A DNA stretch of 64,000 bases from Acidobacteriota bacterium (GTDB lineage Bacteria; Acidobacteriota; Terriglobia; Bryobacterales; Bryobacteraceae): contig QHXW01000152.1 in the NCBI GenBank assembly GCA_003223115.1, positions 1 through 64,000 of the forward strand, given 5' to 3'. Numbering within the stretch: position 1 is the first letter of the stretch; every line of letters starts with the position of its first letter. Below are positions 10,913 through 40,397 of this stretch, one piece after another. The notes below the pieces were generated by a model. It saw only the letters and a list, made by a program, of their open reading frames with translations. It did not search any database and was not told the DNA's origin. The position numbers and the translations under genes were made by a program.

Positions 10913-12303
10913 TGCGGCCTCCGCTGGTCTTGTGGTTTTGAATCCTGCTCTTTATCTGGCCGCGGCTTCTTTTTCTGCTCCTGCGCTTCTTTTTCGAGCA
11001 ACTCTTTGCGGCGCGCTTCGCGGGCGGGCCGCTCTGCGATATCGCGATCGCGATCGAAATATACATCGCCATCAACCATGACCGTCAGCACTTTGGCGTA
11101 ATTCGAGAGCGGATGCTTGTCATAGATGGTCAGATCCGCATCTTTGCCCGGCTCGATGGAACCCACGCGCTTATCGATGGCCAATTGTCTCGCGGGATTG
11201 ATGGTCACTAGCGCCAGGGCTTCGGTCTCATCCAGGCCGCCATACTTCATGGCTTTGGCCGCTTCGGTGTTCAAATGACGATCGAGCTCGGCCGAGTCGG
11301 AGTTGAGTGAAACCAGCACTCCTTTGCGCACCATGATGGCGGCGTTGTAGGGGATGGCGTCGTAGGCTTCGACTTTGTACGCCCACCAGTCGCTGAAAGT
11401 GGAAGCGCCGGCACCGTGTTCGGCGATTTCCTTGGCTACCTTGTATCCTTCGAGCACGTGCTGCAGCGTACGGATCTTGAAGCCGAACTCGTCAGCTACG
11501 CGCAGCAGCATGAGGATCTCATCCTGGCGATAGCAATGCGCGTGCACGAAACGTTTTCCTTCCAGCACCTCAACCAGCGGTTCGAGTTTCAGATCGCGTG
11601 CCGGCGGCACGGCCCGTTCGCCGCGGGCCACTTTTTCGCGATATTCGCGCCAGGCTGCCTCGTAATTGCGCGCCTGGGTGAAAGCGTCCCGAATGACGTC
11701 CTCTACTCCCATGCGCGTGGCCGGATAGCGCAGGCTGGCGGTGTTGCCGAACGGATTCGGCCCACTGCCCTGGCGCTTGGGATTTTCGCCCAAAGCGAAC
11801 TTGATGCCCGGCATGGCGCCCTCGAAGATCATTTCTTTCGCGGATTTGCCCCAACGCATCTTCATCACGGTGCACTTGCCGCCTATGGCATTGGCGCTAC
11901 CGTGCAATACGTTGGCTGTCGTGACGCCCCCAGCCAGGGCGCGATAGATCTCGACATCCTCCGGGTTGATCACATCTTCAATGCCCACCATGGAAGAGAC
12001 CGATGTGCTGCCTTCGTTGATGCTCTCGGCGGCGATGTGCGAATGGCAATCGATGATTCCGGGAATCACGTAGTCGCCGGTCGCGTCGATCACCTTGGCG
12101 TCCGCGGGCGCCGTGATGTTTTCACCGACCTCGGCGATCTTGCCGTCACGCACCAGCACTGAGCCGTGGGTTATTGTTCCTTTAGTGACGGTGAGGACGG
12201 TCGCGTTGCGGATCAGAGTGGTGGAAGCCGCCCGGGCGGGAATCGGCCTCACGGCCAGCAGCGATCCCGCGGCAAGACACAAGATCATCCAGTGAAGTCT
12301 CAT
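10909..12303 (-). CDS. Exported amidohydrolase with intact metal site (second gene of a tandem set)
   Basis: A 464-residue exported metal-dependent hydrolase, imidazolonepropionase/dihydroorotase-like in fold. Signal peptide residues 1-25. The metal motif HSH is present as PGIIDCHSHI (His87 and His89), unlike in both flanking paralogues. Later conserved segments are HAHCYRQDEI and SLNSDSAELDRH, plausible ligand histidine and catalytic aspartate regions, followed by INPARQLAIDKRVGSIEPGKDADLTIYD. The C-terminal 30 residues form a highly charged Lys/Glu/Gln tail. Both ends overlap the neighbouring genes by four bases. This is likely the one catalytically competent member of the trio; substrate unknown. 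Confidence 0.85.
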   Translation of the reverse strand: MRLHWMILCLAAGSLLAVRPIPARAASTTLIRNATVLTVTKGTITHGSVLVRDGKIAEVGENITAPADAKVIDATGDYVIPGIIDCHSHIAAESINEGSTSVSSMVGIEDVINPEDVEIYRALAGGVTTANVLHGSANAIGGKCTVMKMRWGKSAKEMIFEGAMPGIKFALGENPKRQGSGPNPFGNTASLRYPATRMGVEDVIRDAFTQARNYEAAWREYREKVARGERAVPPARDLKLEPLVEVLEGKRFVHAHCYRQDEILMLLRVADEFGFKIRTLQHVLEGYKVAKEIAEHGAGASTFSDWWAYKVEAYDAIPYNAAIMVRKGVLVSLNSDSAELDRHLNTEAAKAMKYGGLDETEALALVTINPARQLAIDKRVGSIEPGKDADLTIYDKHPLSNYAKVLTVMVDGDVYFDRDRDIAERPAREARRKELLEKEAQEQKKKPRPDKEQDSKPQDQRRPQ

Positions 12304-13637
12304 TCTGTTTTCTCCGTTCCGGACCCGGCGGGTGGCTCTTCTGGGATGGGTTCGTACTTGGCTCCGTCCACAAAGATGTATTTCACTTTTGTATGTTCTT
12401 CGAAGATCGGGCCGTCGGTGACCACGAGGTTGGCGATTTTGCCTTTGTCGATGCTTCCCAGCCGGTCCGCGACATCGTAGATTTCGGCGGCCGAAAGCGT
12501 GAATGCCCGGATCGCCTCATCGGCCGGGAGACCGGCATCCAAAGCACGCTTGACCGCTTTGCGGATATCCTGGGGCCGGGTATTGTCTGAGTAAAACGCG
12601 AAATGGACGCCGCTCTTGGAGAGTGCTGCCGGCGTTTTCGGCGCATGCGCACGAAGTTCGAGCACGCGCAGAGTCTCTTTGTCGTCGGGATTGGCGTCCT
12701 GAGCGCGCTCGGGCCATTTGAGACTGACCAGAACAGGAATGTTGAATCGTTTGATCTGATCCACTGCCCGCCAGGCCTCATGGACGCCATAAAGCACCGC
12801 GGGATGTTTGAGTTCTTGCGCGAACCTCAGCATGCGGTCGATTTCGACCTCACGGGTTGCGGGCAGTAGCACGCGCGGCGATTCGAGCACGCCTTCAAGC
12901 GCCCGATCGTAGGCCGGGCGCCGGAGTCCGGCCGGGTTCTGGTACATATCTCTGGTGAGCCTGTAGTGATCGGCGTCGAGGTAGATCTGACGGATGTACG
13001 CAATGACACCCATCAGCGAGCCTGGGAAGCTGGTGAAGCGGCCGGTGGTCAACGACACGTACTCTCCCGCCGGCGAGACCACAACCATCTGGCCCGGGCG
13101 GTCGCCCGCGAGATCGATCACCGCACCCTGGCCGGCGAAGATGCCGTGCGTCGGAAAGGTCACCGCAGTGGTGAAGCCCGCGCTGCGCGCCGCTTCAATG
13201 CGTTTGTCGGAGAGGCTCAGCAGGTCGGCGGCACGGAGCCAACTGGTGTTGGAGGGGCGGTCTTCGGGACCCCGCGCGACTGCAGCGGGGGGTGACGCCG
13301 GCGTAGCGGGCGGGCCGGGTGCGGGCGGTGCGCCGCCCCGCCCCTGCGCCCCGGGTGTGGCGGGCGCGGCTTCAGGAATGCCCCAGGTGCTAAGCGCATC
13401 CGTCAAGCCTGGGTAAACGGTCAGCGCTTTGCCCTCGATGACCCACGCGCCGGCGGGCACGCTGAGGTTTTCGCCCACGGCTTCGATCAGGCCATCGCGC
13501 AGGATCACGGTGGAGTGCTCGAGAGTAGGCCCACTCACCCGAACAACGCGGGCATCCCGGATGGCAAAAGCCGAGGGACCCTCGCCCGGCAGTGTGGCGA
13601 GTGTAAGAAAACTGATGACAAGAATCCTGGCATTCAT
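12300..13637 (-). CDS. Exported amidohydrolase-like protein lacking the HxH metal motif (first gene of a tandem set)
   Basis: A 445-residue exported protein, first in the operon. Signal peptide about residues 1-24. The fold markers are FAIRDARVVRVSG, VILRDGLIEAVGENL and, near the end, AEIYDVADRLGSIDKGKIANLVVTDG. The metal position reads PGLTDALSTWG instead of DxHxH, so the strand-1 histidines are gone. A Pro/Ala/Gly-rich insert of about 35 residues follows (near 95-130). It resembles the third gene more than the second, so two degenerate paralogues flank one intact enzyme. Its ATG lies 35 bp from the divergent purM start, a very compact promoter region. Confidence 0.8.
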   Translation of the reverse strand: MNARILVISFLTLATLPGEGPSAFAIRDARVVRVSGPTLEHSTVILRDGLIEAVGENLSVPAGAWVIEGKALTVYPGLTDALSTWGIPEAAPATPGAQGRGGAPPAPGPPATPASPPAAVARGPEDRPSNTSWLRAADLLSLSDKRIEAARSAGFTTAVTFPTHGIFAGQGAVIDLAGDRPGQMVVVSPAGEYVSLTTGRFTSFPGSLMGVIAYIRQIYLDADHYRLTRDMYQNPAGLRRPAYDRALEGVLESPRVLLPATREVEIDRMLRFAQELKHPAVLYGVHEAWRAVDQIKRFNIPVLVSLKWPERAQDANPDDKETLRVLELRAHAPKTPAALSKSGVHFAFYSDNTRPQDIRKAVKRALDAGLPADEAIRAFTLSAAEIYDVADRLGSIDKGKIANLVVTDGPIFEEHTKVKYIFVDGAKYEPIPEEPPAGSGTEKTE

Positions 13638-13672
13638 CGGCGACTCGTTATACTGGTACTTTCCAAAAACAA

Positions 13673-14716
13673 ATGGTTACAGGCAACCGAATTCGCTACC
13701 GCGACGCGGGCGTCAACATCGACGAAGCGGAGCGTGCGGTCGGCGCCATCAAGAAGATGGCCCAGCGCACGTTCAGCAGCAACGTACTGACACAGATCGG
13801 CACTTTCGGCGCTTGTTATGCTCTCGCTGGGTGGAAAAAGCCGGTGCTCGTCAGCTCGGTCGATGGTGTGGGCACCAAACTCAAGATTGCTTTCCTGACC
13901 GGACGCCATGACACAATCGGTCAGGATCTGGTCAATCATTGCGTCAACGACATCGCCGTTCAAGGCGCCACACCCCTGTTCTTCCTGGACTACTTCGCGG
14001 TCGCCAAACTCGACGCCGAAGTGGCCGCAAGCGTCGTATCAGGTATCGCGCGAGGCTGCCGTGAAAACGGCTGCTCTCTGATCGGGGGCGAGACCGCGGA
14101 GATGCCGGGCCTTTATGCCCCGGGCGAATACGACCTGGCAGGAACCATCGTGGGCGCCGCCGAGAGGAGTGATCTTATCACGGGGAGGAAGATCCGCGCG
14201 GGAGATGCCTTGCTGGCGCTGCCTTCGACGGGACTGCACACCAACGGCTATTCACTGGCCCGCAAGCTGCTGTTCGAGGTGGCCGGTTATCAACCCAATA
14301 CCTGGCGGCACGAGCTGGGGACAACGATTGCTGAGGAGCTCCTGAAAGTGCACCGCAGCTATTTGAAACCGATCCGAGCGCTGGCCGGCTCCGGACTGCT
14401 CAAAGGCGCGGCTCACATTACCGGTGGAGGCATTACCGACAACGCTCCCCGCATGCTTCCGCCGGCTCTGGGGGTCTCAATCGATGTTTCCGCCTGGCCT
14501 GTTCCGCCAATTTTCGAGCTGCTGCGCAAGATCGGCAACATGCCGGAGGACGATTGGCGGCGGACGCTAAATCTGGGCATTGGGATGATCCTGGTGGTGG
14601 CCGAAAAGGATGAAATGCGGGCCGAGCGAGTGCTTAAGAAAATGGGCGAGATCAGCTATCGGATCGGACGCGTAATCCGTTCCAAACGCGGCGGACCGCG
14701 CCTTGAATATCGATGA
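13673..14716 (+). CDS. purM: Phosphoribosylformylglycinamidine cyclo-ligase (AIR synthetase)
   Basis: PurM closes the imidazole ring in purine synthesis (FGAM + ATP to AIR). The 347-residue protein shows the family signatures: YRDAGVNID near residue 9, VSSVDGVGTKLKIAF (about 60-74), NDIAVQGATPLFFLDY (about 91-106), GCSLIGGETAEMPGLY (about 133-148) and HITGGGITDNAPR (about 249-261). All are intact. The last four bases overlap purN, so these two steps are coupled although they are not adjacent in the pathway. The upstream spacer shared with the divergent amidohydrolase operon is only 35 bp. Confidence 0.95.
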   Translation: MVTGNRIRYRDAGVNIDEAERAVGAIKKMAQRTFSSNVLTQIGTFGACYALAGWKKPVLVSSVDGVGTKLKIAFLTGRHDTIGQDLVNHCVNDIAVQGATPLFFLDYFAVAKLDAEVAASVVSGIARGCRENGCSLIGGETAEMPGLYAPGEYDLAGTIVGAAERSDLITGRKIRAGDALLALPSTGLHTNGYSLARKLLFEVAGYQPNTWRHELGTTIAEELLKVHRSYLKPIRALAGSGLLKGAAHITGGGITDNAPRMLPPALGVSIDVSAWPVPPIFELLRKIGNMPEDDWRRTLNLGIGMILVVAEKDEMRAERVLKKMGEISYRIGRVIRSKRGGPRLEYR

Positions 14717-31592: not shown

Positions 31593-31962
31593 CAGCAGCA
31601 TCCAAAGATGCCTTGCGCAATCCGACGTTCCGAGCGAAATTGGTTCCATCAGCATTGGTTCTGCTCCTTAAGTTCAAGGGCCGCTGAGAAAGCGGCCCTA
31701 AAAACCCTCCCGAAAAAGCAAAAAAGGTGCCCGTTGGTGTGGCGGGGCCTGTCCGCACGCCACAGAGTACTCCCCTCTTGGCTGCGGCTCACCAGCAGGC
31801 CAGCTATGCCGTTAGAATGGAGGTCCGTGTTCGGGATCCCATGGGCATCCGGTATGACTCGAGTAGGGCAGGGCGCCAGGCCCGTTCTCGGTTGTGACAC
31901 GAAGCGGAACCCTTGGTGGGACGGGCTCAAACGGACCACGGGCTAAAGGAGATCGAAAACCG
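31593..31962. other. 370-bp spacer upstream of the polysaccharide exporter genes
   Basis: No gene is evident. It holds the hairpin at 31678-31698, an A-rich tract near 31725 and a GC-rich leader ending in AAAGGAGAT (31946-31954), the ribosome binding site of the following permease. I searched the leader for known riboswitch cores and recognised none. Confidence 0.5.
31678..31698. terminator. Perfect 8-bp hairpin after the PAS-LuxR gene
   Basis: GGGCCGCT (31678-31685), loop GAGAA, AGCGGCCC (31691-31698). It lies 86 bp after the regulator stop. The plus strand downstream is TAAAAACCC, not a T-run, so it is not a textbook intrinsic terminator; read in the other direction it is also without a T-run. 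It may still end transcription or be an RNA structure. Confidence 0.4.
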
Positions 31963-32775
31963 ATGACACCGGCCCGAAGCACTACCGCTCTAGAAGGCCG
32001 GCCATCCCGCGGATGGCAGGGTGATTACCTTTTCCTTCTACGCCACCTGATCCAGAAGGATTTTAAGATTCGGTACCGGAACATGTCGCTCGGCGTCTTT
32101 TGGTGTCTATTGAACCCGCTGGTGATGATGGGGGCATTGACGTTCGTATTCACCAAGATTTTTCCCGACAACACAACGCCCGGGTTTCCGGTTTTCGTGC
32201 TCTGCGGTCTGGTTCCGTTCAACTTCTTTACACTGGCATGGGCTACGGGAACCAGTTCGCTGACCGAAAACACATCGATCATCAAGCGCGTGCCGGTTCC
32301 GCGTGAGATGATTCCCATCGCCGCAGTGCTCGGAAATTGTCTTCACCTGTTAATCCAGATCACACTGCTGCTGGTTTTGGTGCTGGCCTTTGGGAACCCG
32401 GTGAATCGCCATTGGGTCTGGCTGCCTATGGTGTGGGGTCTGGAAATTATCTTCGTCTGTGGTCTGGCCTTGATTTTCTCCGCGATCAACATTTTTGTGC
32501 GCGACGTCCGGTACCTCGTTGAATCCTGCAACACGCTGCTGTTCTGGGTTGTGCCGATCTTCTATTCGTTCAGCATCATCCCGCAACAATATCGCGAGAT
32601 CTATCAATTCAATCCTGTTTCAGCACTGGTGCTGGCGCTGCGCAATATCCTTTTGGATGCGGTTGCACCTCCAACGTCGCTGCTGATGAAACTGTCGGCC
32701 AGCTCATTGATCGTCCTGGCGCTTGGATTCTTGGTGTTTGGGAAGCTCAAGCGGAAGTTTTACGATTACTTGTAG
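31963..32775 (+). CDS. Polysaccharide ABC exporter permease (Wzm/TagG type)
   Basis: A 270-residue ABC-2 permease. After a polar N-terminus, [24 protein letters not shown] (about residues 30-53) is the typical amphipathic entrance of Wzm-like permeases. Five to six membrane helices follow. It ends in [10 protein letters not shown], as such proteins commonly do. Start at ATG 31963 because GGAG precedes it and the open frame upstream is not protein-like. The partner ATPase begins two bases after the stop. It probably exports an undecaprenyl-linked glycan such as O-antigen, consistent with the sugar genes that follow. Confidence 0.88.
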
Positions 32776-32777
32776 CC

Positions 32778-33527
32778 ATGGTTGTGGTCGAGTTTGACGC
32801 GGTCTCGAAAAGCTATTCGCATAACGTTGGGGGCAAGCTGCTTCGCGGCCATCTCCAAGAACATTTGCGCGGGATGAAGAGGGAAAAGTTTTGGGCGTTG
32901 AAAGAAGTTTCATTTCGCCTGCAGCAAGGCGAGACCATGGCCGTGGTGGGCCGTAATGGAGCGGGTAAGAGTACTCTATTAGGACTGGTAGCCGGGCTCT
33001 CAGAACCATCCCAAGGTCTTGTAACAGTGAATGGCCGGGTGGCAGCCCTGCTCGAATTGGGCTCGGGTTTCCATCCGGATCTGACGGGCGCTGAGAACCT
33101 GCGCCTAAATGCGGCGTTATTGGGCCTGAGCGGAAGGCGCACTAGTGAGCTGTACGAACAGATTGTCGACTTTTCGGGAATCAGAGATTTCATCGACGAA
33201 GCGCTGCGTACTTACTCGTCCGGCATGATCATGCGGCTAGGTTTTTCCGTGGCAGTTCACGTCGATCCCGATATTCTGATCGTCGACGAAGTTCTGGCGG
33301 TGGGTGATAAGGATTTTCAGGCCAAGTGCTTTGACAAGATTTCAGAATTCAAGCGCTCGGGCAGGACGCTTTTGTTTGTGTCGCATGCCGCGAGCCTGGT
33401 AGAACGGCTGTGCGATCGCGCTATCTGGCTGGACCGTGGTGAGGTCATCATGAACGGTCAGGCGCGGGAGGTGGTGGCCGCCTACACGGGTCAGGTAGCG
33501 GCATCTGCCTCGCCGCCGAAGATTTGA
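32778..33527 (+). CDS. Polysaccharide ABC exporter ATPase (Wzt/TagH type)
   Basis: A 249-residue ATPase. The N-terminus SYSHNVGGKLLRGHLQEHLRG is the insertion that distinguishes Wzt/TagH/RfbE ATPases. Walker A is GRNGAGKST, then the Q-loop and ELGSGFHPDLTGAENL, the signature is YSSGMIMRLGFSVAVH, and Walker B is ILIVDEVLAVGD, all typical of this subfamily. The protein stops soon after the ATPase domain, so it lacks the C-terminal carbohydrate-binding domain found in O9a-type Wzt. Export is then probably not gated by a chain-terminal modification. Confidence 0.9.
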   Translation: MVVVEFDAVSKSYSHNVGGKLLRGHLQEHLRGMKREKFWALKEVSFRLQQGETMAVVGRNGAGKSTLLGLVAGLSEPSQGLVTVNGRVAALLELGSGFHPDLTGAENLRLNAALLGLSGRRTSELYEQIVDFSGIRDFIDEALRTYSSGMIMRLGFSVAVHVDPDILIVDEVLAVGDKDFQAKCFDKISEFKRSGRTLLFVSHAASLVERLCDRAIWLDRGEVIMNGQAREVVAAYTGQVAASASPPKI

Positions 33528-33536
33528 AAACGCCGG

Positions 33537-35627
33537 TCAGTTTCCGCCACGCGCGGAGATGCCACAATCCGGCGAAGTTTCGCGAAGCTCGCAATCGGCC
33601 AAGCCCCAGTTCTCACCGTTGAAAATCATGGGACGGTTGAGGCGCCGCATCTGGGCCGCCCACGCCGCTACCTCGGCGTAATCAATGAAGGGCAGTCCCT
33701 TGGCTGCCAAACGGGCGAAAAGCTGCGCCTGTCCATCCGGCGTCCACCCGGAACCGGTCTGGTGTTCTATGTGATAAATGCGCATTGGGTCAGGCAGGAT
33801 TTCCTCGCGGAAGCCAGCGTGATGGGCGGTATAGCACAGGACGGAATCCAGATTCATTGAGAACAAATCGAATTCAGGATAACCACGCAAATCAAACCAG
33901 TGTTCGCGCGCCATTAGCGTGAAATCGCCGCAACCGTTGGTATGCAGGTAGACAGGTGTGGAATGATTTGTCTGTTGCAACTCGACAGATTCGTCCAGAG
34001 GCTCTGAGTTGGTCTTCAACAGTCGACGTGCCTGATCATAGACGTAATCTGCGGTGGTCTCAGATTTGGACCAGCCGCACCAGAACACGCGGAAATTCAA
34101 AACTCGCGGATCCCGGAGCGCCGGTAGATCGCCACCCTCGAGCGTGAGACGGAACACCTGCGTTTTGCCAGGCACTATCGATAGTGGAATCTCTAAAAGT
34201 TCGAGGCCCTTGACCAAAGCGCGCGCCACCGTGCGTCCGTCGTCGGCTCGCACGAGCAGCTCGAAGGGCTGATCCCTCACTCCCGGACCTGGTTCCACCG
34301 CCAGGACAAGGGTCTTGGGGTGCAAGTGTTTGGGACAGCGAACGATCAGTTGGGCTTCCTTGCTGACCCAACGAAACGTTTCCCTGAGACGATGCTCCAG
34401 AGGGTACCACTGGGCGCCGGGCCGAATGCCCGAGCCGTGCTCGAAAATATCGCCTTTCCCGACCTTAACCGGCAATTTTCGCGATCGCATATAGCATCGG
34501 GCAGCCGCCAACACCGCGCGCAAGACGCCGCCGGCTTCACTGTAGAAGCCGTAGGCTTTCACCAGCTTCAGAGCGAACGATCGAGCGGCTTTGTAGACGC
34601 TAAATGTCGGAGCGCTGGCTTCCACATGGTACGCCCCATCGGGAGTGGGCTCAGATGCGGTGCTCCACCCGCACCGGAAAACGCGGAAGTTCATGATGCG
34701 CGGATCCTGACGCGCCGGAAGGCCGCCGCCGATAACGCGAAAGCTAAAACGGCGCACTGCTTGTCCGTCGGAAGGGAGGCGCAGTGTGATCCTCGCAGGA
34801 CCCGCAATGCTCGTGTGAGCCTGTAGGTGTTGGTCCTCGTCCAAAATCTGCAAATCAAATATCTGGCTGCCGACGCCGGGGCCCGGCTCGATTTCGAAAT
34901 ACAGGGAAGGAGGCGGGCTAAACGGAATTCTTACAAGAACTTCAGCGATATTCTCGACCCAGCGAAACACTTCCTGCTCCGAATGATGTTCCACGGCATA
35001 CCAGCCCCGGCCGAAACTGATGCCTGAATCGGGTGGAGCGATATCGTGCGTTTCGAGAGCACGCAGGCCATTCGCTGTAAGTCTGTGGGTCCCCTCGCGC
35101 GCATTGATTCGAATCAAATGGGAGCGGCAGTAGGCCAATTGCTCTTCCACTAAATCATCGGCAGGCACATCGCGCATGACGTCAAAGCGGTCAATCCGAT
35201 ACATTCGGCCCGGATGCAGATGTCCCTCGGCAAAATACTGAACCAGCTCGTCAGAGAACAATATGTCGACGTTCGTGGCCAGGACGAACTTGCCTCGCGC
35301 GCGCCGGATGCCCACGTTTTTGGCGATCATTTGATAGAGCGGCAGAACGCTGGCGTACCGGTATCCCTGATGGATTTCTGGCGGCACTTGGATGAAGCGC
35401 ACAGAACAGGACGCTGGATCGGCTGGACAACGCAGAACCTCCGTCAGAGACGGACGATCTCCCGGCGGGTTCCATTCGACAATAATCAGCTCAGAGGAAA
35501 GCCCGTGCTTCTTGCATTGGGCGAGCCAGCCATTCAGAAAAGCCTGCATCCGGCCAAGCTGGTTTCCCCCGTGATCATCATTTCTAGCAGCGACTACAAG
35601 AGATAAGTAGCGTGTCGATTCAGTCAT
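33537..35627 (-). CDS. Glycosyltransferase-like protein interrupted by two tandem beta modules
   Basis: A 696-residue protein. Residues 1-185 look like the first half of a GT-A transferase (LSLVVAARNDDHGGNQLGRM, then ATNVDILFSDE with a DxD-like position). Residues 565-660 look like its second half (GDFTLMAREHWFDLRGYPEFDLFSMNLDSVLCY, then RIYHIEH). Between them lie two copies of a module of about 120 residues (about 201-322 and 400-520). Both show W-Y-x-x-E-H, FRWV, IEPGPGV or VEPGPGV, LPAxxDPRxxNFRVFxCGWS. The start is ATG 35627, four bases after the methyltransferase stop. It likely builds the exported glycan; the modules may bind sugar. Confidence 0.72.
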   Translation of the reverse strand: MTESTRYLSLVVAARNDDHGGNQLGRMQAFLNGWLAQCKKHGLSSELIIVEWNPPGDRPSLTEVLRCPADPASCSVRFIQVPPEIHQGYRYASVLPLYQMIAKNVGIRRARGKFVLATNVDILFSDELVQYFAEGHLHPGRMYRIDRFDVMRDVPADDLVEEQLAYCRSHLIRINAREGTHRLTANGLRALETHDIAPPDSGISFGRGWYAVEHHSEQEVFRWVENIAEVLVRIPFSPPPSLYFEIEPGPGVGSQIFDLQILDEDQHLQAHTSIAGPARITLRLPSDGQAVRRFSFRVIGGGLPARQDPRIMNFRVFRCGWSTASEPTPDGAYHVEASAPTFSVYKAARSFALKLVKAYGFYSEAGGVLRAVLAAARCYMRSRKLPVKVGKGDIFEHGSGIRPGAQWYPLEHRLRETFRWVSKEAQLIVRCPKHLHPKTLVLAVEPGPGVRDQPFELLVRADDGRTVARALVKGLELLEIPLSIVPGKTQVFRLTLEGGDLPALRDPRVLNFRVFWCGWSKSETTADYVYDQARRLLKTNSEPLDESVELQQTNHSTPVYLHTNGCGDFTLMAREHWFDLRGYPEFDLFSMNLDSVLCYTAHHAGFREEILPDPMRIYHIEHQTGSGWTPDGQAQLFARLAAKGLPFIDYAEVAAWAAQMRRLNRPMIFNGENWGLADCELRETSPDCGISARGGN

Positions 35628-35631
35628 CGTC

Positions 35632-36483
35632 TCAGCGAGGTTCGGCCGTGAGGCAAAGATGCCACCCGAAACGGTGTTCGAGCGCTCGAAAGACGCGGCG
35701 CGGCAGCCAGCGAAAGTACCAGACCTGAGTATAGCGGTATTGCACGTAATCCTTGATTTGATAAGAAAAAATGTGATCCACGCGAACATCATTGACACGC
35801 CATCCGTGGTCTTCAAGCAGGCGCCGGCCTTCGGACCGCGTGTAGCTGTAGGTCACAGGACAACCAGTCTGCGCCTCGGAATAATCGGCGATGAGTTTTT
35901 TGAGTTTCCAGAGCTGCCCTTTGCCATAGGCCAGCAGGATCCACAAAACTTTCCAGGACCGGCGGTGATACACCATGATTTTCACGGTGCTTCCCGATTT
36001 CACAAATGTGCCCAGCTCATCGAAAACGCGGCCGGGATTGGGTGTGTGGTGGATGACGCCGAATGAGTAGATGAGATCATAGGGTTCGACGGAGATGAAG
36101 GAGCTCAACTGCTCGGCGTTGGCCCTTACAAAACGAATGCGGTCTTGAAGTCCGAACACGTCCGCCCGCTGGCGGGCGATTTCGAGCGATTTGTCTGAAA
36201 GGTCAACAGCGGTAACGGTTGCGCCATTTCGCGCGAAATTGATGGTATCGGTCCCGATCCCGCAACCGATTTCCAAGACTTTCTTGCCGCGCCAGCGTTC
36301 GAATTCCGCGAAAGCCGGAATGTGTGGCTCAACGAAGTACTTCCGCCATTCGACTTCGTTAAAATATTCCGCGGTGCCGATGGGCTTGGTCGAATGACGG
36401 ATGTTGCACGGACGAGCATTCCAGTAGGTCTGGACAGCTTCGAGGGGAACGTTGTGGAACTCGTGCGCTTGTTCAACAGCCAC
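35632..36483 (-). CDS. Class I SAM-dependent methyltransferase in the polysaccharide region
   Basis: A 283-residue cytoplasmic methyltransferase. Motif I is VLEIGCGIGTDTINFARNGATVTAVDLS (about residues 69-96) with the ribose-binding Asp, and the post-I segment is YDLIYSFGVIHHTPNPGRV, a common signature of the UbiE-like/Methyltransf_11 group. The N-terminus YWNARPCNIRHSTKPIGTAEYF resembles methyltransferases encoded among glycan genes. The C-terminal third is basic and aromatic. It sits in a minus-strand group with the modular glycosyltransferase, so a sugar or lipid-linked glycan is the likely substrate. Confidence 0.82.
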   Translation of the reverse strand: MAVEQAHEFHNVPLEAVQTYWNARPCNIRHSTKPIGTAEYFNEVEWRKYFVEPHIPAFAEFERWRGKKVLEIGCGIGTDTINFARNGATVTAVDLSDKSLEIARQRADVFGLQDRIRFVRANAEQLSSFISVEPYDLIYSFGVIHHTPNPGRVFDELGTFVKSGSTVKIMVYHRRSWKVLWILLAYGKGQLWKLKKLIADYSEAQTGCPVTYSYTRSEGRRLLEDHGWRVNDVRVDHIFSYQIKDYVQYRYTQVWYFRWLPRRVFRALEHRFGWHLCLTAEPR

Positions 36484-36522: not shown

Positions 36523-37593
36523 TCACGTTGCGACAATACCCGCCTCGGCAGGAGCAGCAATCATGTTGCCGGAAAACTCGCCTGCTTTGGCGGCAATTGG
36601 CCGGCCAGTCTCGGAAGCAAATGAATAGATATCGTAGCCGAGTTTACGGAAAAGATCCAGGAGTTGGGTGGAAGAGCTACCCGTGTTCTGCAATGCCGTT
36701 TCCGAAGCTTCGAACAGAACAACGGGGCGCAAGTTGCGCAGGAGTTTGAAGGCACCTGATATCAACCGAGTTTCCGCACCCTCGATATCCACCTTAATCA
36801 GATCCAGCCGGTTTAACCGTTCTTCCGAGAATAAATCGTCCAGCCTCCGCATGGAAACTGTCTCTTTGCGTAGAGACTGAATAGCACAACTAAAGCTTCC
36901 CAGCGTGTTTTGACCGGCATGCTCGTCTTCTGCAACGGCTAACTCAGTCTCGCCATTGACATCTGCCAGCGCGACCCGAAGGGGCCGCACGTTGGATATC
37001 TTGTTCAATGAAAGGTTCTGCTGGAGCCGCATGAATTCCCGCTCACTCGGCTCGAACGCCCAGACTTGGCCGGATGGCCCCACTAAACGCGACGCAAGCA
37101 ATGTATACAGCCCGTCGTTCGCGCCTGCGTCTACGAACACCATTCCGGGTTTCAAGGAGCAATTGACGAAAGCTGTCTCATTGGGCTCGTAACAACCGGC
37201 GATGAACAGTTGCTTGGACAGATCGTTGCCCAGCCAAAGTTTCAGTTCGAGGCCATGATGCCACTTCATAGGGATGGACGCTTCCGATTTGTGATCGCGG
37301 AAATAGGACCAAATCAGCCGGCGGATTTGAAATGCAATATCAGGGTTGTCCCATTCGATGTCAAAGAGCCACCCGGGATAGGTCGTGAGCGGCCGGGCGA
37401 ACGTTATATCTTTGGCGGCTTGGAGGAGAATGTTTTCCGTCGGATGCCAGATGGAAACATCTTCGCACTGCGCTTCAGGTTCGAGAACCGGCTTGCCTGA
37501 TGATGCGCTATCGCTGTTACCGGCGGTCGAATGCGTTGTGCGTGCGGATAGATCCGCAGCCTGGGGAAGCACGTTACCTGGCATCTTCGTCAT
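36523..37593 (-). CDS. FkbM-family methyltransferase
   Basis: A 356-residue protein with a FkbM domain at about residues 145-310: FVDAGANDGLYTLLASRLVG (motif I), VWAFEPSEREFMRLQQNL, then LIKVDIEGAETRLISGA and PVVLFEAS. FkbM enzymes methylate hydroxyl groups, often on sugars or polyketides. The N-terminal 140 residues have no recognised domain and include LELKLWLGNDLSKQLFIAGCYEPNE, usual for this family. It is first in the minus-strand group with the methyltransferase and the glycosyltransferase, separated from the next gene by 39 bp. Confidence 0.85.
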   Translation of the reverse strand: MTKMPGNVLPQAADLSARTTHSTAGNSDSASSGKPVLEPEAQCEDVSIWHPTENILLQAAKDITFARPLTTYPGWLFDIEWDNPDIAFQIRRLIWSYFRDHKSEASIPMKWHHGLELKLWLGNDLSKQLFIAGCYEPNETAFVNCSLKPGMVFVDAGANDGLYTLLASRLVGPSGQVWAFEPSEREFMRLQQNLSLNKISNVRPLRVALADVNGETELAVAEDEHAGQNTLGSFSCAIQSLRKETVSMRRLDDLFSEERLNRLDLIKVDIEGAETRLISGAFKLLRNLRPVVLFEASETALQNTGSSSTQLLDLFRKLGYDIYSFASETGRPIAAKAGEFSGNMIAAPAEAGIVAT

Positions 37594-37702
37594 AGTCTAA
37601 TCGAATACACGCGAGTGGTCTCAGTTACAGCTATCCTGCGCGGTATACGTCAGCGGCTCCTGATGGAGTTGGCGCTGAACAACCATACTATAATCTCATC
37701 TT

Positions 37703-38476
37703 GTGGGTGCCACGTATGGCACTGAAGTGATAGGCTGCTTACGAGGCCGCCTCGCTATCTGCGAAACTCCCGTTCCTAATTTCTTTGAGGTATCGATCCT
37801 TGGAACCCTGCCGGAGGGCGGCGGAGTCGAGACATTTGACACGCCGGCGGCTCTCGAAATCAACCGGGCAAGAATGTCTCATCTCAAGTCCCTCAGGCTT
37901 CCATTAGAAAACAAGTTCGTTCTAGATGTCGGCTGCGTCGTGGGACACCTGGCGCAATTCTTTGACGACCGCAACTGTCGTGTGGTTTGCGTGGACGGGA
38001 GGCCGGAGAACGTGCGCGCGCTCGCTTCTCGTTATCCCGAAGCTTGAAGCCCATGTAGCGAACGTTGAATCTGAGCTTTCCTGGTTCGGACAGTACGATA
38101 TCGTTTTCAGCTACGGATTTCTATCATCTCGAGAACCCGATTGCGGGCCTCAGGAATATGGGAGCGGCCTGTGAAGAGCTGCTGCTAGAAACTATCGTTT
38201 GTGATCATGAGCTGCCACTCGTCCATTTTGGACGATGAGACAAAGACATTCAGCCAGGGACATTCAGCCAGGCGCTCGGTGGAGTCGGATCCCGCCCGTC
38301 ACCAAGTTTTGTGGTGATGGCGCTGGATCGTTTGGGACTACGTTTTATCTATGCGCCTCGCATTCCGCCAGCATACCTGGACTTCCGGTTTGAATGGCAG
38401 AATGCACTGGACTGGCGTCGTGACGGCCACTCGATTCGTTGCGTGTTGGTCGCTTCACGCAACACTGGCGAATGAC
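37703..38476 (+). pseudogene. Frameshifted SAM-dependent methyltransferase gene
   Basis: The first frame (37703-38047, GTG start) gives NKFVLDVGCVVGHLAQFFDDRNCRVVCVDG, a SAM-binding motif I and II, then ends at a TGA. The next frame continues EAHVANVESELSWFGQYDIVFSYGF. A third gives YHLENPIAGLRNMGAACEELLLLE, and a fourth PSFVVMALDRLGLRFIYAPRIPP and a final CVLVASRNTGE before TGA. At least three frameshifts are thus needed. A perfect 14-bp tandem duplication at 38245-38272 breaks the frame in the last third. Confidence 0.8.
38245..38272. repeat. Perfect 14-bp tandem duplication in a dead methyltransferase gene
   Basis: GACATTCAGCCAGG occurs twice in a row (38245-38258 and 38259-38272). A 14-bp insertion is not a multiple of three and so contributes to the loss of the frame. 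Confidence 0.95.
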
Positions 38477-38562
38477 AACCTCGTCTTACTTAATAGCTGA
38501 AGTGGGTCCGCTTTCCGGGGGGCATAGCCCGGGGCATGCATAGGCGTTAAAATAAGAATTGC

Positions 38563-38608
38563 AATAATTACGGGGCTTCTGATAATAATTACGGGGCTTC
38601 TGATAATA
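38563..38608. repeat. Perfect 21-bp tandem duplication between two dead genes
   Basis: A 21-bp unit beginning AATAATTACGGGG and ending CTTCTGAT is present twice (38563-38583, 38584-38604), followed by four bases of a third copy. It lies in the spacer between the dead methyltransferase and the truncated GT2 relic. It is too short to be a CRISPR array and has no spacer. Confidence 0.95.
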
Positions 38609-38887
38609 TCATTTCATGCAGAGAAGCTCAGGCAGCCGTTCCGGAGCGTACTGCCCATCACCATGCACGAGAGCCACGGCATCAAACTGTTCACGAATGA
38701 CGTAGTGGAATTTTTTGGTTGCCGCCATATCCCTTGCCCGCTCAAAGGTCTGATCGCGTGACGAGTCGTCAATGATCAGTATCTCTGTCTCGTGCTTGCT
38801 AATGCCGTAAAATGCCGTAGGGATTCTTTGGATCACGTCCCGAATCGTTCGCTCGGCGTTATAGGCCACAATGAAGCTAAAACGCGT
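38609..38887 (-). pseudogene. Relic of a GT2 (dolichol-phosphate-mannose-synthase-like) glycosyltransferase
   Basis: The minus-strand frame gives FSFIVAYNAERTIRDVIQRIP, then EILIIDDSSRDQTFERARDMA, and ends AIREQFDAVALVHGDGQYAPERLPELL-like sequence, the start of a GT2 fold with its nucleotide-binding Asp pair. Between ATKKFHYV and IREQFD about 25 residues of the family are missing without loss of frame. The protein stops after 160 residues, where about 250 or more would be expected. The upstream 70 codons of the open frame are unrelated. It is a truncated, internally deleted gene. Confidence 0.7.
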
Positions 38888-39386
38888 TTTCGACTGATCC
38901 GCGCCAGGTCCCGGCAACGGTCTCAAAGCGTAAGGTGATCGCTGGAGGTGGGATCGAATCGGCTTCCCGCCGGCTGTGCATGACACTGCAATCTCGGATA
39001 CTGTTATCGTTGATTTCGACCCATCAGGTATGGGTAGGTTAGTTAAGACAATGCCTCCATTTGTGTGCCGAGCACATTGTGCTGCGGAGTTGTACAATCC
39101 CGCCGTCGCAATAAGGACCGATCTCGCCGCGCACAGTGAACCGCTACCGTCTCGATGGGCACTTCTGAGCGTGTTATCCGACTTGCCGGTACACGCCCAT
39201 TCGATTCGGAGTTGCTTTTGAGCACGGGTTACGCAACTCCGCTCCCCATCGAACCGGGCGCGGCTTCAGCCCATGCTTGCTCGGAAGATCCAATGGAACT
39301 TGCGCGTCGAGCCTGTACCCGAACCGAGCGATCAGATCACCAGCCTGCGAAGTAAACTCGAAAGAATTTGCCTAATCGAACGATTC
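38888..39386. other. 500-bp stretch without a recognisable gene
   Basis: Between the GT2 relic and the epimerase gene I find only short open frames without family resemblance or ribosome binding sites. The neighbourhood of dead genes suggests that it is degraded coding DNA, but I could not identify the source. Confidence 0.4.
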
Positions 39387-40397
39387 TCACCATCTTCGCG
39401 CTGCCAATTCCGGCCGCCGCTCCTCTGCCATCCGCTCCCGCACCTGCTCCTCGATCCACCCATACGTTCGCGCCAAGCCCTCTTCGAGCGAGACCGCTGG
39501 CTCCCATTTCAACACGCTCCGCAAAAGCGTGTTATCGGAATTCCGGCCGCGCACGCCCATTGGCCCGGGCACATGTTTCTTCGAGATTTGCACGCCCGCA
39601 ACCGCCGCCACCATGTCCGCCAACTGGTTGATGGTCACCATGCGGTCTTGGCCCAGGTTGAGTGGCTGGCGAAAATCCGACCGCATCAGCAGGTCAATCC
39701 CTTTCACGCAGTCGTCGATATAACAGAACGACCGGGTCTGCTCGCCATCACCCCAAATCTCGATTTCCGCATTTCCGGTCAGCTTCGCAATCGCCACTTT
39801 GCGGCACATGGCGGCTGGAGCCTTCTCGCGCCCGCCATCCCAGGTGCCTAGAGGCCCGAAAATATTGTGGAAACGCACCACTCGCGTCTCGATGCCGTAA
39901 TCCTCGCGATAATGCGCGCACAATCGCTCGGTCACCAGCTTTTCCCAGCCGTAAGCATCCTGGGGCTGAGCCGGATATGCGTCTTCCTCTTTGAGCGGAA
40001 CTACGTTGGCTTCGGCTTGTTTGTACTCCGGATAAACGCACGCTGATGAGGTGTAGAGATACCTGCGCACGCCATTGATCCGGGCGGCTTCGAGTGTGTG
40101 GAGATTGATCAGCGAATTGTTATAGAGAATCTGCGCGTGATGGTTCGAAATGAAACCCATGCCGCCCATATCGGCGGCCAGCGCAAAAACCTCGTCGATG
40201 CCGCGCGTGGCCTGCAGGCAACTGTCCCAGCGCCTTAGGTCGAGCAACTCAAATTCGTCTGCGCTCGATGGACAGTACTCCGGGGGCTTCAGGTCAACGC
40301 CGCGCACCCGGTATCCCTGCCGCTTAAAGTGCGCCATCAGGTGATGACCAATGAATCCCCCCGCCCCGGTGACCAGAACTCTTGTGGTGTTCGACAT
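39387..40397 (-). CDS. NAD-dependent nucleotide-sugar epimerase, GDP-mannose 3,5-epimerase-like
   Basis: A 336-residue short-chain dehydrogenase. The NAD motif is VTGAGGFIGHHL (about residues 8-19), and the catalytic region is SSACVYPEY followed by YGWEKL (Tyr-x-x-x-Lys). The segment LAADMGGMGFISNHHAQILYNN is characteristic of GDP-mannose 3,5-epimerases. Start at ATG 40397, where the Rossmann fold begins, five bases after the dehydrogenase stop. With the adjacent nucleotide-sugar dehydrogenase it may supply precursors for the exported glycan. Substrate identity is inferred from family resemblance. Confidence 0.82.
   Translation of the reverse strand: MSNTTRVLVTGAGGFIGHHLMAHFKRQGYRVRGVDLKPPEYCPSSADEFELLDLRRWDSCLQATRGIDEVFALAADMGGMGFISNHHAQILYNNSLINLHTLEAARINGVRRYLYTSSACVYPEYKQAEANVVPLKEEDAYPAQPQDAYGWEKLVTERLCAHYREDYGIETRVVRFHNIFGPLGTWDGGREKAPAAMCRKVAIAKLTGNAEIEIWGDGEQTRSFCYIDDCVKGIDLLMRSDFRQPLNLGQDRMVTINQLADMVAAVAGVQISKKHVPGPMGVRGRNSDNTLLRSVLKWEPAVSLEEGLARTYGWIEEQVRERMAEERRPELAARRW

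Follow-up and report, generated by a model that had tools for sequence, protein, structure and literature searches.

A predicted GT-A glycosyltransferase with two CBM-like modules inserted in its catalytic domain, from a putative polysaccharide locus of a Bryobacteraceae bacterium

Described systems and the locus in the window

TarS of Staphylococcus aureus, a polymer-modifying GT-A enzyme of the GT2 family, resembles the protein analyzed here in carrying two tandem, sequence-unique modules with the fold of carbohydrate-binding modules (CBMs). A role in binding the glycopolymer has been proposed for this CBM pair, whose truncation makes the enzyme less processive (PMC5156392). The same paper places them at the C-terminus and describes them as similar to CBM48 and CBM68, whereas the modules described below lie between the halves of a GT-A domain and appear more like other beta-sandwich CBMs. 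Wzt_C (PF14524) is a domain of polysaccharide loci with ABC exporters that reads the glycan and its cap (PMC9445017). It is located on the exporter ATPase, whereas no row of our 11-row and 47-row module sets matched PF14524, and a Pfam scan of the Wzt-like ATPase of the window did not detect it. Klebsiella pneumoniae O7 ORF6, an O-polysaccharide enzyme, has an unexplained CBM-like domain beside methyltransferase and glycosyltransferase (GT) modules, but this domain is described as immunoglobulin-like and follows a methyltransferase-kinase part instead of lying within a GT-A fold; K. pneumoniae systems occur with and without a transporter CBM (PMC11231755).

The predicted jelly-roll fold of our module is shared with CBM22, CBM6, CBM35 and CBM36 in Foldseek and VIA-align searches, but their identity to it is 5-14% and no sequence-family match was obtained. 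These families have been described mainly in degradative enzymes. BcsB has a beta-sandwich near the module fold and works beside cellulose synthase; unlike the modules inserted in the transferase, it is a separate subunit on the periplasmic side. We found no CBM inserted within a bacterial GT-A domain in the titles and abstract openings of the open-licence PMC papers listed in our searches, which is weak evidence of absence.

The window is a stretch of 64,000 nucleotides (contig QHXW01000152.1, assembly GCA_003223115.1) from a soil bacterium of the family Bryobacteraceae, phylum Acidobacteriota. An ORF on its minus strand at 33537-35627, with the start ATG at 35627 and the stop at 33537-33539, encodes a 696-residue protein that its translation and AlphaFold model suggest to be a GT-A glycosyltransferase interrupted by two modules. 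Its start codon is 4 bases past the stop of the gene directly upstream, a SAM methyltransferase identified with Pfam (35632-36483, minus strand), and an FkbM-type methyltransferase follows on the same strand (36523-37593; PF05050, E 8.1e-21). Convergent to the transferase are the genes of a Wzm-like ABC-2 exporter permease (31894-32775, plus strand; PF01061, E 8.8e-16; NF050109, E 8.2e-18, under its cut-off) and a Wzt-like ABC exporter ATPase of 249 residues (32778-33527, plus strand; PF00005; NF050108, E 3.5e-55, under its cut-off). The locus probably makes an ABC-exported, perhaps methylated surface polysaccharide, and the transferase is probably cytoplasmic. Between the FkbM and epimerase genes, at 37600-39387, are an ORF resembling the start of a GT2 enzyme (38609-39097, minus strand) and methyltransferase pieces (37703-38174, plus strand). 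Judged by eye, these short ORFs are apparently gene remnants.

The GT-A halves and the inserted modules

The first GT-A half (residues 1-189; 35061-35627, minus strand, as for all parts of the protein), delimited by alignment with uninterrupted homologues and by fold search, contains the motif TNVD at residues 118-121. Module 1 (residues 195-323; 34659-35045), a predicted CBM-like beta-sandwich, was defined by self-alignment, a model of the module and fold searches, and module 2 (residues 393-521; 34065-34451) by self-alignment and the full-length model. The linker between them (residues 324-392; 34452-34658) was taken from the AlphaFold model, where helices are predicted at 344-365 and 368-384 with low to middling confidence. 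The second GT-A half (residues 556-690; 33558-33962) holds the motifs HTNGCGDFTL, MNLDS and YHIEH, with residues invariant in 60 aligned rows. A preliminary description of this DNA had placed the modules at 201-322 and 400-520 and the halves at 1-185 and 565-660, which is correct within about 30 residues.

Alignment of residues 195-334 with 393-531 (BLOSUM62) gave a score of 240, against a mean of 29.6 and a maximum of 53 for 1000 shuffles of the second region. The motifs first noted as shared were each found in both copies, starting in modules 1 and 2 at 221 and 418 (FRWV), 247 and 445 (EPGPGV), 308 and 506 (DPR), 313 and 511 (NFRVF), and 319 and 517 (CGWS). Both module regions are beta-rich in the full-length AlphaFold model, which used 60 aligned sequences (mean pLDDT 86.1, pTM 0.72) and is weak at residues 522-552 (pLDDT below 50) and in most of the inter-module linker (about 57-70). 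The split transferase with two homologous, beta-rich modules is thus real and beyond chance.

With VIA-align, both halves together matched SpsA (1h7l) with Z 16.6 and rmsd 3.6, 226 residues being aligned to a chain of 239 over the model range 6-664. Further matches of the model were the chondroitin polymerase K4CP (2z86_B; Z 20.0, rmsd 3.4, 243 aligned), AvpGT (9jma_A; Z 16.8, rmsd 3.8, 235 aligned), TarS (5tz8_A; Z 15.2 over 212 residues) and GalNAc-T2. According to the model, the window protein is one GT-A fold of Rossmann-like type. Across 60 aligned homologues, 34 columns were invariant, including N119, D121, G567, D568, F569, D594, H619, H622, W674 and G675 (60 of 60 rows); from the invariant N119 and D121, TNVD is the likely equivalent of the DxD motif. 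No named Pfam glycosyltransferase family reached its cut-off for the window protein (best PF13896, E 0.25, with 11.1 bits where 27 are required), and one of the 60 homologues matched Pfam at E 0.01 (PF13896, E 0.0027). The possibility that two unrelated enzymes had been fused or split, raised in the preliminary description, was ruled out because uninterrupted relatives exist and the halves align together to single GT-A domains. The halves therefore belong to a single enzyme.

The preliminary description recognized no named domain for the duplicated insert. At the level of sequence families this holds: searches with the whole protein and with module alignments against Pfam, NCBIfam and PDB sequences gave no convincing family. 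The best Pfam match of the modules was PF24107 (DUF7382), found in 2 of 47 modules at E 0.0034. No Pfam CBM family appeared among the 11 and 47 module rows scanned, and the PDB profile search with the module returned no natural CBM, its weak matches (E 0.49 or worse) being designed repeat proteins and a hypothetical protein. By fold, in contrast, the module resembles a known domain type. Modeled alone with 47 aligned copies, module 1 gave a confident prediction of ten strands (mean pLDDT 93.9, pTM 0.87), and Foldseek matched it to CBM6, 4, 16, 36, 61 and 35 at E 1.6e-4 to 8.1e-4. Among the 50 Foldseek matches listed (E 1.5e-4 to 1.9e-3), 21 were titled carbohydrate-binding module or domain and 5 were BcsB; others were glycoside hydrolases, lectin-like proteins and insecticidal Cry proteins. 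TM-scores were 0.35-0.54 over the listed matches and 0.36-0.54 to the CBMs, at the 5-14% identity given above. The matches to Cry proteins and binary-toxin parts are taken as a common jelly-roll fold with no functional kinship.

VIA-align gave module 1 its best scores with xylanase Xyn10B, an enzyme that has a CBM22 (2w5f_A; Z 8.8, 113 aligned, rmsd 3.2), and with BcsB (5eiy_B; Z 8.8, 116 aligned, rmsd 4.2). Titled CBM22, CBM6 and CBM35 domains scored Z 7.7-8.3 (CBM22, 8.3). Best Z values of 7-8 are common in models without a clear match and 8.8 is little higher; it is the agreement among the matches that carries the fold assignment. The full-length fold search also ranked tandem CBM22 (4xup) and tandem CBM51 (2ygl) high, with low TM-scores. 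The module is moreover part of a carbohydrate-active enzyme, being inserted in a GT-A transferase, with another copy on a GT2. Altogether, there is moderate support from models for a CBM-type beta-sandwich or jelly-roll fold.

Relatives of the transferase and carriers of the module

With the protein as query, 8 of 61 genomes, among them that of the window, had a match at E 1e-5, and one relative (G022) is an open frame of 393 residues with the two halves and no inserts. Scanning named genomes yielded 77 loci from the best 80 of 114 candidates. Within the resulting 74 complete ORFs (partial ORFs such as L061 and L075 and the multi-transferase ORFs L084, L098 and L106 being set aside), 17 had two modules, 17 had one and 40 had none by profile, and the distance between the halves ranged from 11 to 475 residues. 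Uninterrupted relatives among the loci L049-L125 are labelled Cyanobacteriota, Chlamydiota, Planctomycetota, Verrucomicrobiota, Pseudomonadota and others. Judged from these sequences, the transferase family is unnamed, widespread in many bacterial phyla and almost without Pfam coverage. Some record labels look doubtful, such as 'Acidimicrobiia' for L053, and among L102 and L116 the Klebsiella pneumoniae and Akkermansia labels are those of metagenome bins. In 14 examples, module-free relatives carry inserts of 70-188 residues in the same loop; these were rejected as modules, as by eye they are helical and often basic. L075, labelled Planctomycetota, holds a module in a broken frame and was left out of the trees.

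A tree of 79 rows built from the catalytic halves requires two changes for the presence or absence of modules and eight for their copy number (0, 1 or 2). A 75-row tree, built without the long branches L104, L116, L118 and L125 and also without L030, L036 and L048, separated the 39 module-bearing rows, together with L074, which has no modules, from all others by a branch supported at 98/99. This branch was recovered in 96% of 200 bootstrap trees, a bootstrap that had yet to settle fully. We therefore read the trees as suggesting one gain of modules, one apparent loss (L074) and subsequent copy-number changes. Most of the clade belongs to Bryobacterales; members with other labels are L053 and L111 (Acidobacteria gp6), the placement of the latter being unsure because of its long branch. 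The module tree is short of columns and leaves many forks open. In it, two changes account for the second-position copies, and 16 of the 18 form a group with support 83. This grouping makes the duplication seem old rather than recent in the window gene. By eye, a third, degenerate copy precedes the second half in L053, L057, L058, L060, L062, L063, L064 and L070. In L058, a protein of 1051 residues (11316-14468) starts like a transferase, scoring 50 bits with the profile of the first half, and by eye ends in three divergent module-like repeats; Pfam gave nothing above noise for this protein.

The module is also found outside this transferase. A profile of 11 modules matched 81 of 237 Bryobacteraceae/Bryobacterales genomes at E 1e-5, many of them weakly, and 23 of a sample of 396 Acidobacteriota genomes at E 1e-8, including the window's own, mostly with low scores. 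Close copies occur at the C-terminus of a sulfotransferase (PF00685, L035; L133 is similar by eye), an Asp/Asn hydroxylase (PF05118, L029/L141), a TylF-type methyltransferase (PF05711, L141), a GT2 (PF00535, L145), and large proteins without a Pfam family that, by eye, look membrane-bound (L032/L138, L134, L135, L139). In addition to these copies on other enzymes, free-standing copies do exist: a two-module protein with a lipoprotein-like signal by eye (L033/L140) and further two-module proteins in L132 (cut by the contig end) and as the second ORFs of L134 and L135. The free-standing gene of L134 adjoins an ORF that combines GT9 and pyruvyl-transferase domains. In L140, the lipoprotein-like gene is flanked by one ORF resembling an aminotransferase and another resembling DNA polymerase III. 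Several genomes (L126-L130, L144; Pfam for L126 only) share a SAM methyltransferase of some 475 residues whose middle is cysteine-rich and which ends in a divergent module. Over 40 first-position, 15 second-position and 17 other-context copies, chosen by profile score, the signature residues W209, E213, F221-R222-W223, E247, D308, R310 and R315 are each the commonest, in 72-100% of copies.

We also compared the modules with the occurrence of Wzt_C. For the window and the 12 module-bearing loci with a Wzt at E 1e-20, 12 of 13 Wzt have no C-terminal extension, the exception being L111, with Wzt_C together with the module. At loci with module-free transferases, 3 of 9 Wzt have the extension; these nine include L092 (C-half only, its gene apparently split between contigs) and leave out L090 (frame cut). 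Pfam scans of eight Wzt proteins found Wzt_C in L079, L089, L111 and L119 and none in L050, L052, L060 and L064. Wzt_C occurs somewhere in 223 of the 237 genomes of the family, three times in the window's genome. The neighbors of the module-free L074 were not decisive: in 40 kb of its contig we found only a Wzm-like piece of 59 residues, a homologue of UDP-glucose dehydrogenase and weak matches to ABC ATPases. That carbohydrate binding has shifted from Wzt to the transferase is suggestive only, the counts being small and the loci related.

Possible roles of the modules

We consider it moderately probable that the inserted CBM-like modules serve to hold a growing or modified glycan in place for the GT-A domain of this ABC-exporter-type polysaccharide locus. 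A CBM-like module would have entered the loop between the donor and acceptor halves once, in an ancestor of the mostly Bryobacterales clade, and then been duplicated. The modules would most likely keep a lipid-linked or partly modified glycan close to the catalytic site and thereby increase affinity, processivity or specificity for the correct acceptor. Other enzymes, including several glycan-building or decorating kinds, and secreted-looking proteins of the same bacterial family may have recruited the module in turn. Function by analogy with the described systems is likely. Set beside the features computed directly (one GT-A fold, two homologous modules, a single clade, other contexts and the locus), the location, CBM function, ligand and mechanism are what we infer. 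Of the two roles suggested in the preliminary description, binding of the growing glycan would be consistent with the predicted CBM-like fold, and control of its length is more speculative.

Several observations count against glycan holding. L074, an open frame of 393 residues nested in the module clade, does without modules. Faster module evolution in some gene pairs also speaks against it: second modules had a dN/dS above that of the first catalytic half in both pairs available (0.21 vs 0.06 and 0.27 vs 0.07), and the first module did so in one of three pairs (0.48 vs 0.06), with about equal values in the other two. In favor of the reading, dN/dS was below 1 in all five module comparisons (0.07-0.48); it was 0.06-0.23 for the first catalytic half, from three gene pairs of which two share the same two genomes. 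Finally, again on the opposing side, removal of the TarS domain is reported to have had only a minimal effect on binding kinetics (PMC5156392).

The TarS result leads to a possible, if unlikely, alternative, that the modules are oligomerisation domains, CBM-fold sandwiches through which the enzyme forms multimers, with no sugar binding of their own. In TarS, the tandem CBMs make up the trimerisation domain, and truncation of the N1 domain of a pullulanase likewise affected binding kinetics minimally (PMC5156392). A module number of 0 to 2 by profile within one clade would also suit this explanation. However, the same signature recurs on unrelated enzymes and lipoprotein-like proteins, for which an enzyme-specific oligomer would have no need.

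A docking role, in which the modules would recruit the transferase to the ABC exporter or to partner enzymes, appears improbable. In its favor, 13 of 27 module-bearing loci have a SAM methyltransferase homologue (E 1e-8), directly upstream on the same strand in 11 of the 13, and Wzt, Wzm and FkbM homologues accompany 13, 11 and 6 of the 27, respectively. FkbM, a separate gene in the window, is fused to a module-bearing transferase in L065 (8776-11640) by Pfam. By eye, an FkbM methyltransferase-like region is fused to a module-bearing transferase in L136 (2171-4843) as well. The module-free loci have the same neighbors near the transferase (the SAM methyltransferase homologue in 15 of 50, Wzt in 14 of 50), and the neighborhood is therefore typical of the transferase and not of the modules. 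Docking is further opposed by the copies on other enzymes and by the lipoprotein-like gene of L140, given its neighbors. That the modules are tolerated passengers of little function is very improbable, since at least one module is kept in 39 of the 40 rows of the clade, their dN/dS is 0.07-0.48 and the signature is conserved, notwithstanding the loop of family-wide variable length and the one nested row that lacks them.

In the window protein, a CBM-like module that has no name is repeated within the catalytic domain of a GT-A enzyme, whereas the CBMs of biosynthetic transferases are appended in the examples compared. As natural relatives with 0, 1 and 2 copies exist, a glycan-holding role in processivity or chain length is directly testable. 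The transferase family and the module are two unnamed families, and both are annotation gaps, because the family spans bacterial phyla yet hardly matches any Pfam model. The occurrence of the module on several glycan enzymes and on secreted-looking proteins suggests recognition of some feature that their glycans share. It is rather unlikely, in our view, that this lineage has in the module a portable reader dedicated to one glycan feature, which in the window locus replaces Wzt-domain checking inside the transferase. If this were true, its carriers in Bryobacterales, which are polymerising, sulfating, methylating and hydroxylating enzymes and lipoprotein-like proteins, would mean that a single coat polymer is recognised both by the proteins that make it in the cytoplasm and by those that handle it outside.
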